Origin: Fundidesulfovibrio putealis DSM 16056
Lineage (GTDB): Bacteria > Desulfobacterota > Desulfovibrionia > Desulfovibrionales > Desulfovibrionaceae
Assembly: GCF_000429325.1 (NCBI RefSeq)
Contig: NZ_AUBQ01000006.1
Coordinates: 62,001 to 126,000 of the forward strand
Reading direction: 5' to 3'
DNA: 64,000 bases
Made by a program: the position numbers and the translations under genes. The notes below the pieces were generated by a model. The model did not search any database, was not told the DNA's origin, and saw nothing but the letters and a program-made list of their open reading frames with translations. Numbering within the stretch: position 1 is the first letter of the stretch; each line of letters starts with the position of its first letter. Positions 23,150 to 27,580 of this stretch are shown piece after piece.

Positions 23150-24121
23150 TTACTTGTCCCGTTTGGCCATGCCCTCCAGGGCCGCGAGCAACAGCTCTGT
23201 CTCTTCGCTGTCCGGGAAACCGTCCAGGCTTTGTCTGGCCTTGTCCAGGTAGGAGGACGCCATGGCCCTGGTTCTGTCTGCGAAACCGCCGGAGGCAACG
23301 GCTGTTAGTGCCGCTTCCAATTCTACCTCTGGAACTGTGTTCTCTTTGAAGGCTTTTGTAAACCCTTCGCGTGCAGCAGGAGAGAGGCTTTCCAGATAGA
23401 ATATGAGCGGCAGGGTGAGCTTGCCTTCCCGGATGTCGGAGCCCTTGGGCTTGCCCGACACTTCCTTGGGCGAGGTGTAGTCCAGGGCGTCGTCCACCAG
23501 TTGGAAGGCCACGCCCAGGTTCATGCCGTAATCGGCGGCGGCGTCCTGGAGCGCAGCGGGGGCCTCGGCCAGCAGTGCTCCGGCCCGGCAGGCGGACTGG
23601 ATCAGGCAGGCGGTCTTGCCGATGATGATGTCCAGGTAGCCGTCCATGGTCAGGTCCACGTCGCGGATGCGGGCTATTTCCTCGATCTCGCCGCTGGCGG
23701 TGCGCAGGATGGCGTCGGACAGGCAGGCGGTCAGGGAGGGCTTTCCGTAGGCGGCCACCATGGTGTTGGCCAGGGCCAGCAGCACGTCTCCGGCCAGGAT
23801 GGTGTACGTGGCGCCGAAAAGCGTGTGCGCGGCGGGCTGGCCGCGCCGAAGCTCCGCGCCGTCCAGGATGTCGTCGTGGAGCAGGGTGGCCGAATGCAAA
23901 AGCTCCAGGGAACATGCCAGGGGGTAGACGTCGTTTGCCCGGTAGCCCAGGGCGCGCGCGCACAGGATGGTCAGCAGGGGGCGCAGACGCTTGCCGCCCG
24001 CCTTGAGCACGTGCTGCGCCGTGGGCAGCACGTACGGATTGAGCTGCGAGACGTGGCTGCGAAGACATTCCTCTATCAGGGGAAGCTCACGGGACATGTA
24101 CGAGGCGAATTTAAGCATCAT
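23150..24121 (-). CDS. polyprenyl diphosphate synthase
   Basis: Trans-prenyl transferase of 323 residues that builds the isoprenoid tail, probably for menaquinone. Both aspartate-rich motifs are present: LLHDDILD (residues 81-87, D83, D84 and D87) and LVDDALDY near residue 210. GGKRLRPLL at 42-50 binds IPP. It starts 17 bases after the stop of futalosine hydrolase, another menaquinone enzyme. The start (two consecutive ATG codons at 24121) has no strong ribosome-binding site, suggesting coupling to the upstream gene. Chain length cannot be predicted reliably. Confidence 0.9.
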   Translation of the reverse strand: MMLKFASYMSRELPLIEECLRSHVSQLNPYVLPTAQHVLKAGGKRLRPLLTILCARALGYRANDVYPLACSLELLHSATLLHDDILDGAELRRGQPAAHTLFGATYTILAGDVLLALANTMVAAYGKPSLTACLSDAILRTASGEIEEIARIRDVDLTMDGYLDIIIGKTACLIQSACRAGALLAEAPAALQDAAADYGMNLGVAFQLVDDALDYTSPKEVSGKPKGSDIREGKLTLPLIFYLESLSPAAREGFTKAFKENTVPEVELEAALTAVASGGFADRTRAMASSYLDKARQSLDGFPDSEETELLLAALEGMAKRDK

Positions 24122-24138
24122 GATATGGTCTTGTCGGG

Positions 24139-24897
24139 TTATCCCCGGTTTGTCTGGGGCGTCCGCGCCGGGAAAAGCCCGGCCAGCGCGCTCCCAAGGC
24201 CCTCCAGGGCCTGCTTGAGCTTCCAATTGGTCCGGTCGCGCTCTCCAACCCGGTTGGAGATGGTCCGGACTTCCAGAAAAGGCGTCTGGCGTGTGCGGCA
24301 GGCCAGCGCCAGGGCGAAACCTTCCATGCTCTCGGTGAGCGCTCCGTGCCGTTCGGCCATGGCCCGCGCCCGCTCGAAGGAGCCGGTGACGCCCGCCACG
24401 GTCAGGGCCGCACCCCGCCGTACCGTATCGGGCAAGACGAGCCCGAGCTCTGCGGCGTCGTCGTCCGGGGCCAGCTCCAGGGACTGGAGCACCCGCCCGG
24501 CTGCGTCCTCCCACTGGGGGAAGGGAAAGCCCGACGCGTCGGCGGGTTCTTCCCCCGAGACGACGCCGTATTCGGGAAACCCCTCCCGGCTGGCCGCGAC
24601 CACCGACTCCAGCGGCGCGGCAGTCAGATCGAAACTGCCTGCCAGCCCCAGGTTCAGCACGCCGGAAATGTCGTATCGCCCAAGAACAGCGCCCATTTCA
24701 AGCGCCGCGTTCACCGGGCCCACGCCCGTGACCACCAGGAGCGCGTCGCGCCCGAAAATATCCGCAACGGCAGCGCCCCGCTCCGGGACCGCGTATCCGG
24801 CTGCGCCAGCCGATATCCCGGCCAAAGCCGCACGCATCTCGACCGCCGTGGCCGTCACCAGCGCCAGGAGCCGTTTGGGAGCCGGGTGACTGGTCAT
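24139..24897 (-). CDS. mqnB: futalosine hydrolase
   Basis: Nucleosidase-fold enzyme of 252 residues that splits futalosine to dehypoxanthine futalosine and hypoxanthine in the alternative menaquinone pathway. Typical parts are ALVTATAVEMRAAL at the N-terminus, VVTGVGPVNAA (about 55-65), LNLGLAGSFD (about 81-90) and a C-terminal MEGFALALACR before FLEVRTISNRVGERDR. A related 5'-methylthioadenosine nucleosidase is less likely, since ISNRVGERDRTNW is characteristic of MqnB. It is followed by polyprenyl synthase, which supports the menaquinone role. Confidence 0.88.
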   Translation of the reverse strand: MTSHPAPKRLLALVTATAVEMRAALAGISAGAAGYAVPERGAAVADIFGRDALLVVTGVGPVNAALEMGAVLGRYDISGVLNLGLAGSFDLTAAPLESVVAASREGFPEYGVVSGEEPADASGFPFPQWEDAAGRVLQSLELAPDDDAAELGLVLPDTVRRGAALTVAGVTGSFERARAMAERHGALTESMEGFALALACRTRQTPFLEVRTISNRVGERDRTNWKLKQALEGLGSALAGLFPARTPQTNRG

Positions 24898-24925
24898 GCT
24901 CGGCGTTTCCTGTCAAAGCGCCGGG

Positions 24926-25150
24926 TCAGATCTTTCTGACCACGGCCACGAATTTCCCCAGGCCGATGTCTCGCAACTCGATGATTTCCGATTTGCGGTG
25001 CTGCGACACCAGCTCCAGCTTGCGTTTCTGTTGCGGGCATATCTCCACCTCGATCAGCCCGCCGCTCTCCAGGGCCTTGAGAAGCGAACTCGCTTCCAGA
25101 AAGCCCTTTCAGCAGTCGCCCGAGCAGTCGAGGCGGGGAATAGGGTCCAC
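24926..25150 (-). CDS. predicted selenoprotein: TusA-family sulfurtransferase-like protein, UGA = Sec14
   Basis: A 74-residue protein if the in-frame TGA at 25109-25111 is read as selenocysteine. The GTG start at 25150 has GGAGG seven bases upstream and begins two bases after the stop of the dehydrogenase gene. The N-terminus, LDCSGDC-Sec-KGFLEA, aligns with the TusA pattern LDxxGxxCPxP, so Sec14 replaces the catalytic Cys. The rest (SLLKALESGG, LIEVEIC, GKFVAVVRKI) fits the TusA beta-alpha-beta-alpha-beta fold. A SECIS-like hairpin lies directly downstream. Reading TGA as stop would give only 13 residues, with no other start for the conserved remainder. Function in sulfur or selenium transfer is inferred. 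Confidence 0.8.
25071..25107 (-). promoter_or_regulatory. bacterial SECIS-like hairpin downstream of UGA
   Basis: Starting one base after the UGA, AGGGC pairs with GCCCT (5 bases). An inner stem GAAGCG / CGCTTC (6 bases) closes an AGTT loop. The loop G, followed by U, is 20 bases after the UGA, in the range seen for SelB-dependent bacterial SECIS elements. The whole element is inside the coding frame. Confidence 0.7.
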
Positions 25151-25151
25151 G

Positions 25152-26465
25152 CTACAGCCTCCAGTAGTCCAGTCCGCCCTCGGTCAGGGCCTTTCTGTCC
25201 AGGGTGCCACGGATGTCCATGACCAGCCCGCCCCGGGGGGCGGCGAAGCGCTTTGCGAGGTCCCCGGCGGGTGTCGCTTTGTAGGACTGATGCCCCACGG
25301 CCACGATGAGCGCCTCGAGATTCGTGAACTCCTCCAGGGGCGAGAGCGTCAGGCCGTATTCGTGCATGGCCTCTTCCGGGTCGGCCATTGGATCGTGCAC
25401 CAGCACGCGCACGCCGTACTCCTCGAGCTCGCGGATCACGTCCACCACCTTGGTGTTGCGAAGGTCCGGGACGTTCTCCTTGAAGGTGAGGCCCCACACA
25501 CCCACGGTGGCCCCGCTGACTGGCCGCTTGGCCGCGATCAGGCGCTTGATGCACACTTCGGCCACGTGCTTGCCCATGGAGTCGTTGATGCGCCTGCCTG
25601 CCAGGATCACCTGCGGGTGCAGGCCCAGGCCCTCGGCCAGAAAAGTCAGGTAATAGGGGTCCACGCCGATGCAGTGGCCGCCCACCAGGCCGGGCCGGAA
25701 GGGCAGGAAGTTCCATTTGGACCCGGCGGCCTCCAGCACCTCCAGGGTGTCGATGCCGACTTTCTCGCAGATGAGGGCCAGCTCGTTCATGAGGGCGATG
25801 TTCAGGTCGCGCTGGGTGTTCTCGATGATCTTCGCGGCCTCGGCCACCTTGATGGAGCTGGCCCGGTGCACCCCGGCCCGAACCACCGTGCCGTAGACCT
25901 GGCAGAGCAGTTCGCGCACCTCGTCGGTCTGTCCGGCCACCACCTTGACGATGGTTTCCAGGGTGTTGACCTTGTCGCCGGGGTTGATGCGCTCGGGGGA
26001 GTAGCCGATGAAGAAGTCCTGTCCGCCCTTGAGCCCGGAGTGCTCCTCCAGGAGCGGCAGGCAGATTTCCTCGGTCAGGCCGGGATAGACGGTGGACTCG
26101 AACACCACCACGCTGCCCTTGGCGAGGTTCTTGCCCACGGTGACGGATGCGGAGCGCACCGGGTGCAGGTCAGGGCTGCGGTGGGAGTCGATGGGGGTGG
26201 GCACCGCCACGATGACCACGCCGCACTGCGCGATGCGGGCCGGATCACAGGTATATTCAATGGGATTGGCGACCAGGGCGGCGTTGTCCACCTCGCCCGT
26301 GTCGTCGAAGCCCTGGCGCAGGCGATCGATGCGCCGCGCGGAAATATCGAAGCCGACAACGGCGAAATGTCTGGCGAGAGCAACGGCCAGCGGCAGGCCC
26401 ACATACCCCAGGCCGACAATCGCGATGGATGTCTTGCGGGAGTTCAGTTCCTCGAACGTGACCAT
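25152..26465 (-). CDS. UDP-N-acetylhexosamine 6-dehydrogenase (WbpA/TviB type)
   Basis: NAD-dependent nucleotide-sugar dehydrogenase of 437 residues that oxidises C6 of a UDP-sugar to the uronate for surface polysaccharide. The Rossmann motif VGLGYVGLPLAVAL is at the N-terminus. The middle domain has NTQRDLNIALMNELA, and the catalytic region is GLVGGHCIGVDPYYL. The C-terminal NAD domain includes WGLTFKENVPDLRNTK. This pattern favours the WbpA/TviB group over UDP-glucose dehydrogenase. The start at 26465 is supported by GGAG seven bases upstream. The tiny gap to the next gene suggests a shared message. Confidence 0.88.
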   Translation of the reverse strand: MVTFEELNSRKTSIAIVGLGYVGLPLAVALARHFAVVGFDISARRIDRLRQGFDDTGEVDNAALVANPIEYTCDPARIAQCGVVIVAVPTPIDSHRSPDLHPVRSASVTVGKNLAKGSVVVFESTVYPGLTEEICLPLLEEHSGLKGGQDFFIGYSPERINPGDKVNTLETIVKVVAGQTDEVRELLCQVYGTVVRAGVHRASSIKVAEAAKIIENTQRDLNIALMNELALICEKVGIDTLEVLEAAGSKWNFLPFRPGLVGGHCIGVDPYYLTFLAEGLGLHPQVILAGRRINDSMGKHVAEVCIKRLIAAKRPVSGATVGVWGLTFKENVPDLRNTKVVDVIRELEEYGVRVLVHDPMADPEEAMHEYGLTLSPLEEFTNLEALIVAVGHQSYKATPAGDLAKRFAAPRGGLVMDIRGTLDRKALTEGGLDYWRL

Positions 26466-26596
26466 TCTGTATCTCCATTCTGGTATCAGGGGAGAAGCGT
26501 CATTACAGGACTTTCCCCCCGGCATCAAGCCGACCTGGGCGGGCGGACATGCCCTGCGGGCTGGACAGAACGACGCCCTGGGTCTACTTTCTTCGG

Positions 26597-26800
26597 ATGA
26601 ACATCGACTTCAAACTTCTTGCCATGGCCATCGGGCTCGCCCTGGTAATCGAGGGCATGCCTTATTTTCTCTTTGCGGAAAAGATGCCCAAGGTTCTTCG
26701 CACCCTTTCAGCCATGCCGCCGCGCTCCCTGCGCCTGATAGGCATGGCCTCCATGGCCGTGGGGGTCACCCTGGTCTGGATCATGCGCCGGTCAGGCTAG
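26597..26800 (+). CDS. DUF2065 family small membrane protein
   Basis: A 67-residue protein with two predicted membrane helices (about 6-24 and 48-62). It begins MNIDFKLLAMAIGLALVIEGMPYFLFAEKM and has PPRSLRLIGMASMAVGV, the DUF2065 (YjeT-like) pattern. Function is unknown. In several proteobacteria the family lies near hflK/hflC or purA; here the nearest genes are the sugar dehydrogenase and menG. The upstream region shows no strong ribosome-binding site, so the start is set from conservation of MNIDF. Confidence 0.75.
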   Translation: MNIDFKLLAMAIGLALVIEGMPYFLFAEKMPKVLRTLSAMPPRSLRLIGMASMAVGVTLVWIMRRSG

Positions 26801-26869
26801 GCTTTCGCCGCGCCGTTCCCGCCTTCCCGAATCCCTGAGTTCCGCAAACGCCGCCCAGGTCCGGGCGAC

Positions 26870-27580
26870 TTACGTCTTTTTCACGCCCACGTGGATCACC
26901 ACGATCCCGAAGGCCAGCTTTTCCCAGCTCACCTCAGCGAATCCCGAGGCGCGCATCTCAGCCGCCAGGGCGTCCGCGTCCGGAAATTCCCGTATGGTGT
27001 CGGCCAGATAGCGGTACGCGCCGTCGTCCGAGGAGAATACCTTTCCGATCACAGGCAGCAGCCGGTCCAGATAAAAATTGTAGATGCCGCCAAGAATCCG
27101 CTGTTTTCCCGATCCGAACTCCAGGATGCACAAGCGCCCGCCGGGCTTTAGCACACGCAAGAGCTCCGCGTAAGCCTCGCTGCGGGGGCGGATGTTGCGG
27201 ATGCCGAACGCGATGGAGGCCGCCTCGAAGCGTTCGTCCGCGAAGGGCAGCGCCCTGCCGTCGGCCTGCACCGGGTCGATTGATTTCACGCCGCGCCGCG
27301 CGAGCTTCTTCGTGCCCTCGACCAGCATGGGCAGGCAGAAGTCGGCCGCAGTGACGCGGCATTTGGGGTGGCGTCCGGCCGCTTCCAGGGAGACGTCCAT
27401 GGTCCCGGCGGCCAGGTCCAGCAGGCGGCTTGGGCGGTCCTTGGGCAGGGCCAGGTGGTCCACCAGGCGTCTGCGCCACAGAATGTCCAGCCCCAGGCTC
27501 AGGAAATGATTCAGGAAGTCGTACCAGCCCGCGATGCGGCCGAACATGGAGGCCACGCGCTGGCCGTGATCGGAACTCAT
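26870..27580 (-). CDS. menG: demethylmenaquinone methyltransferase
   Basis: Class I SAM methyltransferase of 236 residues that performs the last step of menaquinone synthesis. Typical motifs are FGRIAGWYDFLNHFLSLGLDILWRR at the N-terminus, LLDLAAGTMDVSLE for SAM binding, ALPFADERFEAASIAFGIRN and LRVLKPGGRLCILEF. With mqnB and the polyprenyl synthase nearby it fits a menaquinone-only organism, so menG (ubiE-like) is the better name. It begins three bases after the stop of a small conserved gene. Confidence 0.92.
   Translation of the reverse strand: MSSDHGQRVASMFGRIAGWYDFLNHFLSLGLDILWRRRLVDHLALPKDRPSRLLDLAAGTMDVSLEAAGRHPKCRVTAADFCLPMLVEGTKKLARRGVKSIDPVQADGRALPFADERFEAASIAFGIRNIRPRSEAYAELLRVLKPGGRLCILEFGSGKQRILGGIYNFYLDRLLPVIGKVFSSDDGAYRYLADTIREFPDADALAAEMRASGFAEVSWEKLAFGIVVIHVGVKKT

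Follow-up and report, generated by a model that had tools for sequence, protein, structure and literature searches.

A predicted selenoprotein family of the TusA superfamily with selenocysteine at the putative relay site

The cysteine of the CPxP motif of TusA takes sulfur from IscS. In YeeD the CPxP cysteine shows mass-spectrometric signs of a persulfide and the decomposition of thiosulfate depends on it, a reaction that TusA itself could not carry out (PMC11073785). TusA-domain proteins of the SirA-like/YedF type have been linked to SelD (PMC2432076, PMC5322559). A table of 119 prokaryotic selenoprotein families has been published (2026, PMC13188914), and it contains no TusA or SirA selenoprotein. 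Neither was any TusA/SirA-type selenoprotein found in the literature that we searched by titles, starts of abstracts and passages, including PMC12013277, PMC9312934, PMC5029168, PMC1794560, PMC4607533, PMC11097638, PMC5322559, PMC2432076 and PMC11073785; supplements and preprints were outside the scope of this search, so an earlier mention is possible.

Here we describe a gene, located in a window of 64,000 nucleotides (the whole stretch of DNA that was analysed), which very likely encodes a selenoprotein with the TusA fold, no labelling or expression data being available for it. Conservation of an in-frame TGA, the hairpin which follows it and the occurrence of SelB and tRNA-Sec together support the identity of the residue as selenocysteine (Sec). 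The family would bring selenium into a fold, that of TusA, which serves as a hub for sulfur transfer, and there the stronger nucleophile accompanied by a resolving Cys might alter the chemistry.

The gene, its homologues and its predicted fold

The selenoprotein gene occupies positions 24926..25150 of the minus strand. It starts with GTG (25150-25148), ends with TGA (24928-24926) and codes for 74 residues; the in-frame TGA at codon 14 (25109..25111, minus strand), predicted to be read as Sec, is followed by 60 sense codons before the stop. A GGAGG Shine-Dalgarno sequence (25158..25162, minus strand) is separated from the GTG by a spacer of seven bases. The upstream neighbour, a nucleotide-sugar dehydrogenase gene (25152..26528, minus strand; UDPG_MGDP_dh domains), terminates with TAG at 25154-25152, one base ahead of the GTG, and therefore the Shine-Dalgarno sequence lies inside its 3' end. 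Downstream, after a gap of 28 bases, there is the gene of futalosine hydrolase MqnB of menaquinone synthesis (24139..24897, minus strand; TIGR03664, 176.6 bits, cut-off 124.7). The plus strand at 24926-25150 holds an unrelated frame.

More widely, the minus strand at 23150-27580 contains menaquinone-related genes (polyprenyl synthase, mqnB, menG/ubiE-like) and the nucleotide-sugar dehydrogenase gene around the selenoprotein gene.

The first-pass annotation, made from sequence alone, had reported the GTG start, the GGAGG site, the TGA at codon 14 and, 60 codons later, a normal stop, all of which held; it named no strand, and the frame proved to lie on the minus one (25150 to 24926). The LDxxGxxU motif, C13 and C38 are present in the window protein as it described. 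C38, mentioned there as an extra Cys, is not conserved and varies even within the genus.

Besides the own genome, homologues with TGA at the same codon were detected in 10 of 38 relatives; in the weakest of these matches (G028) the frame ran into a second TGA, its terminator. Profile searches of the order, the class, the phylum and the class of the carrier G529 matched 54 of 297, 55 of 348, 24 of 395 and 19 of 55 genomes, and a single TGA was found inside the match in 52 (taken as the true matches of the order), 54, 23 (own genome included) and 18 of them, respectively. The remaining matches were G226 and G215 in the order, both weak and devoid of the motif, G226 again in the class, G613 in the phylum, rejected as a chance match of 15 residues, and one canonical TusA in the class of G529. 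These searches overlap, and the distinct carriers number 85 (54 + 22 + 9), counted by the tool as genomes with one TGA inside the match; 84 of them, all but G302, were read. The order and phylum searches, including that of a further phylum described below, were samples drawn evenly (297, 395 and 388 genomes).

TGA is present at the Sec codon in all 84 homologues read. The residue preceding Sec is C in 84/84, U-2 is D in 81 and E in 3, and U+2 is G in 77, A in 6 and P in 1, which gives the motif [D/E]-C-U-x-[G/A/P] in every sequence (84/84); C9 is C in 52/84. Identity to homologues in other genomes amounts to 26-75% on both sides of the TGA. Each of the proteins consists of one domain, some 70-110 residues long according to which start is taken, and the family divides into a Desulfovibrionales subfamily with mostly C-W-x-D-C-U-x-G-[F/Y/L] and a subfamily found elsewhere in the phylum with mostly D-Y-R-x-D-C-U-x-[G/A]-[F/Y]; the two subfamily profiles align with an hhalign probability of 99.4. 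The pattern CWxDCUxG[FY] was met at 59 loci in genome contigs, 9 of which score at least 72 bits against the family profile; the remaining 50 reach no more than 17.9 bits, if they score at all, and were taken for chance without individual reading.

The first-pass annotation had stated that its reading would be refuted by a lack of homologues with Sec or Cys at the aligned position, by the absence of the Sec machinery or by a sequencing error at the TGA. None of these was borne out: homologues with Sec at this position are present in 85 genomes, which belong to 37 genera (genus labels of the tools), both SelB and tRNA-Sec were found in the own genome, and the TGA is no sequencing error because it is common to so many genera.

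No Cys form of the family was found in the order, class, phylum and G529-class profile searches, among 388 genomes of another phylum (that of G726) or in 18 genomes of mixed origin, the last scan having no positive control. The search profiles carried C in the Sec column, therefore Cys forms should score fully, and those matches that lacked a stop were weak, none exceeding 26.4 bits. The phylum of G726 yielded seven matches in six genomes, namely five canonical TusA proteins of the CPxx type (18.1-26.4 bits) and two chance frames. The closest Cys-containing relatives to emerge were TusA proteins, and distant ones. As the order and the phyla were sampled, rare Cys forms may have been missed. 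A PDB sequence search with the family profile gave nothing relevant, and the window protein found no match in genome and viral contigs or, by tblastn, in plasmids, records near the window possibly being excluded in both cases.

The candidates rejected as Cys forms were L272-L275, L278 and L297 (canonical TusA proteins), L276 and L277 (chance frames across longer frames of the other strand), L202 (a chance frame among longer frames on both strands), and G226 and G215 (no motif).

An AlphaFold2 model of the window protein, built from an alignment of 10 sequences (pLDDT 87.8, pTM 0.72), comprises strand 6-8, helix 13-26, strand 32-37, helix 39-51 and strands 54-63 and 66-73. The predicted structure thus has the beta-alpha-beta-alpha-beta-beta fold, with the reactive residue located where helix 1 begins, by which the TusA superfamily is recognised. 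In a structure search the five best PDB matches were three YeeE-YeeD chains, YhhP/TusA and IscS-TusA; four matches had E <=0.001, unrelated folds were mixed in from rank 6, and thioredoxin was absent among the 50 PDB structural matches shown. Alignment by hhalign of 74 family sequences with 28 TusA domains (27 from the phylum and one own) gave a probability of 96.5 and an E of 9.6e-10 (pairwise value), placing Sec on the catalytic Cys of TusA and leaving the first Pro of CPxP opposite a gap. The subfamilies alone reached 92.4 and 94.5 against TusA, and a reversed control 1.3. The earlier claim of Sec at the catalytic position of a TusA-like fold is thereby supported by profile-profile comparison and predicted structure.

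Against the Pfam TusA model (PF01206) the window protein scores 13.2 bits; with a cut-off of 28.6 this criterion is not met, and the protein lies outside PF01206 as curated. Single members show only weak resemblance to the model: at E up to 1 it was hit by 4 of 28 members in one set (best E 2.1e-6) and by 3 of 22 in another (best E 2.6e-4). The family lacks the CPxP motif (84/84), which together with the score below the Pfam cut-off defines it as a divergent family of the TusA superfamily. The own genome has two PF01206 matches above the cut-off, so the selenoprotein is no replacement for TusA. When 50 members were compared with NCBIfam at E up to 1, no matching model was that of a selenoprotein and none fits the window protein; TsoC (NEPxGxxU; PMC12013261) was weighed as a possible known TusA-like selenoprotein, and no Tso model appeared among these matches.

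The downstream hairpin and the selenocysteine machinery

A hairpin of the bacterial SECIS type is located at 25080..25097 (minus strand), with 7 bp, an AGUU loop and a stem beginning 11 bases after the UGA; the predicted longer stem spans 25073-25105. The SECIS search advised by the first-pass annotation was carried out with our own scripts, and the hairpin fits 81 of 84 sequences, each of which makes 6 or all of the 7 pairs in one or the other of two registers; the exceptions, which misfit both, are G267, G211 and G329. In the set of 74 sequences 40 use the four-base-loop register (97% of cells paired), 32 the six-base-loop register (95%) and 2 neither, and arms slid elsewhere are 31-61% paired; in the set of 84 the split is 49, 32 and 3. 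The registers were assigned by the same pairs that were then counted, thus the 95-97% figures are partly built in. Compensatory changes are present in the hairpin pairs. For distinct sequences pairing reached 95.2% and 94.3% versus shuffled maxima of 88.7% and 85.7%, and within the register groups it exceeded 2000 of 2000 arm shuffles for each register; the shuffles are uncorrected for relatedness and lean towards structure. A fairer control than register pairing or shuffles is the position of the arms: at 14 other positions 0-19 of the 84 sequences fit, versus 81 at the real one (19 at three bases before, 0 at six before, 6 and 11 at three and six after, and 0-5 at the ten positions further on).

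The Ser at U+7 is encoded by AGT in 49 of 52 members of the order, a codon which six window genes employ for 3 out of their 230 serines. Taken alone, the window gene lends only moderate support, 217 of 5000 synonymously recoded versions folding as well and 97 of 20000 keeping all seven pairs. Selection on both the hairpin and the AGT codon appears likely.

Within the DYR subfamily, seven genomes from two families (L203, L205-L209, L212) share one and the same hairpin sequence, GGACGTAAGTTTACGTCT, and the RNA at this site appears constrained at least as much as the protein.

SelB of the own genome scores 366.4 bits (cut-off 242.25) and tRNA-Sec 83.9 (cut-off 47), with a second tRNA-Sec match at 49.8 bits. 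The tRNA was sought in the own genome only, and its model is loose, matching all 14 control genomes, 5 of them above the cut-off. The SelB scan took 80 of the 113 genomes listed and was positive by the curated cut-off in 76 (49 of the 52 carriers included and 27 of the 28 non-carriers); the carriers without a match (G019, G267 and G329) are fragmented or incomplete assemblies. SelB fails to separate carriers from non-carriers, hence its co-occurrence is uninformative on function and was rejected as a guide to it.

A second SelB match above the curated cut-off was noticed in several genomes, nearly full-length in the carriers G552, G669, G652, G614 and G686 (G614 having a third, partial one) and covering only part of the model in G529, G505, G571 and G716.

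Gene neighbourhoods, proposed function and rival explanations

Neighbourhoods were analysed for 49 of the 85 carriers. The nucleotide-sugar dehydrogenase gene upstream and mqnB downstream occur in the same 17 of 49 loci, all instances of this menaquinone context belonging to the order. A TauE/SafE-type transporter gene follows downstream in 7 loci (genus g8), and the upstream gene encodes what we take, by reading of its sequence, to be an S1-like protein. Downstream of the gene, 7 of the 49 loci have CbiK; upstream of it, 6 have a LysR regulator. SelD and YedF lie near the gene in one locus of 49, that of G630 (whose proteins served as queries), at +2.3 and +3.3 kb downstream (within 2.3-3.9 kb). 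Most recognised neighbours are neither sulfur nor selenium genes. There are four recurrent contexts and none is universal; no context being common to all carriers, the neighbourhood was rejected as proof of a pathway.

Three loci merit separate mention. The SelD of G630 (L214, ~2.3 kb downstream) is apparently a selenoprotein, since its frame reads through one TGA (GSGUASK); the frame with this TGA lies upstream of the listed ORF, beside YedF. In the TauE/SafE context of G117 (L237) a BadF/BcrA-type ATPase is encoded ~1.7-4 kb upstream, beside what we take from its sequence to be, probably, a dehydratase-like partner; a selenium cluster described earlier includes a CoA-substrate-specific enzyme activase and a 2-hydroxyglutaryl-CoA dehydratase subunit (PMC5322559). 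In the L206 group the gene is placed between DUF4198 and a gene which we take, again by reading of the sequence, to be molybdopterin-oxidoreductase-like (0.5-4 kb upstream) and the CbiK chelatase gene (~1 kb downstream); this may be a metal-uptake region.

The computational evidence supports decoding of UGA at codon 14 as Sec with the aid of the hairpin immediately downstream, and a location of Sec at the beginning of helix 1, the site of the catalytic Cys in TusA. The mechanism proposed on this basis is inferred. The selenolate may accept a sulfane sulfur or selenium atom, giving Sec-S(-) or Sec-Se(-), from a donor that could be a cysteine desulfurase, a persulfide, a polysulfide or thiosulfate. 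The atom would be either passed on or freed as sulfide/selenide on attack by the neighbouring Cys, which would leave a Cys-Sec selenenyl-sulfide to be reduced afterwards. The selenenyl-sulfide between C13 and Sec, already put forward by the first-pass annotation, is plausible in view of the invariance of the pair in the 84 sequences read, while the sulfur/selenium relay suggested there is still an inference with no activity data behind it. The chemistry is borrowed by analogy from TusA and YeeD (PMC11073785), and as CPxP is missing, partners and chemistry may differ from those of TusA. For the whole proposal of a TusA-fold selenoprotein acting as chalcogen carrier or reductase, whose function is inferred, we consider the chances for and against to be level.

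The rival which survives best, and which remains possible, is a thiol/selenol redox protein cycling through Cys13-Sec14 without chalcogen transfer, with disulfides, peroxides or quinone-related electrophiles as substrates. Vicinal Cys-Sec pairs act in thioredoxin reductase. The C-U dyad of all 84 sequences read speaks for such a role, as does the position between the nucleotide-sugar dehydrogenase gene and mqnB in 17/49 loci. Against it, the fold is that of sulfur carriers, none of the 50 structural matches shown being a thioredoxin, TusA proteins are the closest relatives with Cys that our searches returned, and the menaquinone context was seen in the order alone.

A dedicated selenium carrier, feeding SelD via a Sec perselenide in parallel to YedF, seems unlikely. 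It is favoured by the link of TusA-domain proteins to SelD (PMC2432076, PMC5322559) and by the SelD and YedF genes downstream in G630; however, this arrangement was found in 1/49 loci, and with SelB present in 27/28 non-carriers Sec decoding is seemingly independent of the selenoprotein. Still less probable is a soft-metal or mercury/arsenic-binding protein employing the C-U pair. The CU motifs of the organometal proteins SaoL and HgcA (PMC13188914) speak in its favour, but CbiK (7/49 loci) and DUF4198 are near the gene in one group with no recurrence elsewhere, a statement limited to the neighbours identified, metal-resistance families as such being outside the scan. That the TGA is a true stop, leaving a 13-residue leader peptide or a pseudogene, can be practically dismissed: the own terminator is also TGA and a good ribosome site serves the first 13 codons, yet the frame is conserved before as well as after the TGA (26-75% identity to homologues elsewhere) and the hairpin and AGT codon look selected.

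Meaning of the family and comparison with known systems

A bolder version of the chalcogen-carrier reading, towards which we are at present slightly more sceptical than favourable, sees in the family an old, phylum-wide and Sec-only carrier in which Cys does not replace Sec. Such a family would have been overlooked because homology-based selenoprotein finders need Cys counterparts, and the 85 Sec versus 0 Cys forms in our searches point to a blind spot in selenoprotein discovery. If this reading is true, it would be the first TusA-fold protein known with selenium at the relay site, and there would be a Sec-dependent branch of intracellular sulfur/selenium trafficking in sulfate-reducing lineages. 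The family also lends itself to the question of why Cys does not take the place of Sec.

Compared with TusA/SirA (PF01206; YhhP 1dcj, 3lvj), the predicted fold is alike (TM 0.76 and 0.73 by query) and the reactive residue is at the same start of helix 1; D six residues ahead of Sec, present in 42 of 84 sequences, resembles the D-x-R-G-x-x-C of many TusA sequences. The new family differs in having Sec for Cys, C ahead of Sec and no Pro after it, which appears as a one-residue gap. YeeD (TsuB; 8k1r, 8j4c), partner of the thiosulfate transporter YeeE, is the best structural match (TM 0.78-0.82 by query, three chains) and has a reactive chalcogen residue at the same site, but unlike the new family it retains CPxP with a cis Cys-Pro peptide (PMC11073785); no YeeE was recognised by eye among the neighbours inspected. 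YedF (TIGR03527) shares a TusA-type domain tied to selenium, whereas its reactive residue is a Cys in CPxP and a second domain (DsrE) is attached. The new proteins are single domains with Sec, so that the DsrE-fused TusA arrangement of YedF is not met, and there is no TIGR03527 match. Finally, a Cys directly ahead of Sec is shared with SaoL, SaoC, HgcA, KCU-star, MbdU and Csac_0668, CU-motif selenoproteins which belong to other domain families (PMC13188914).
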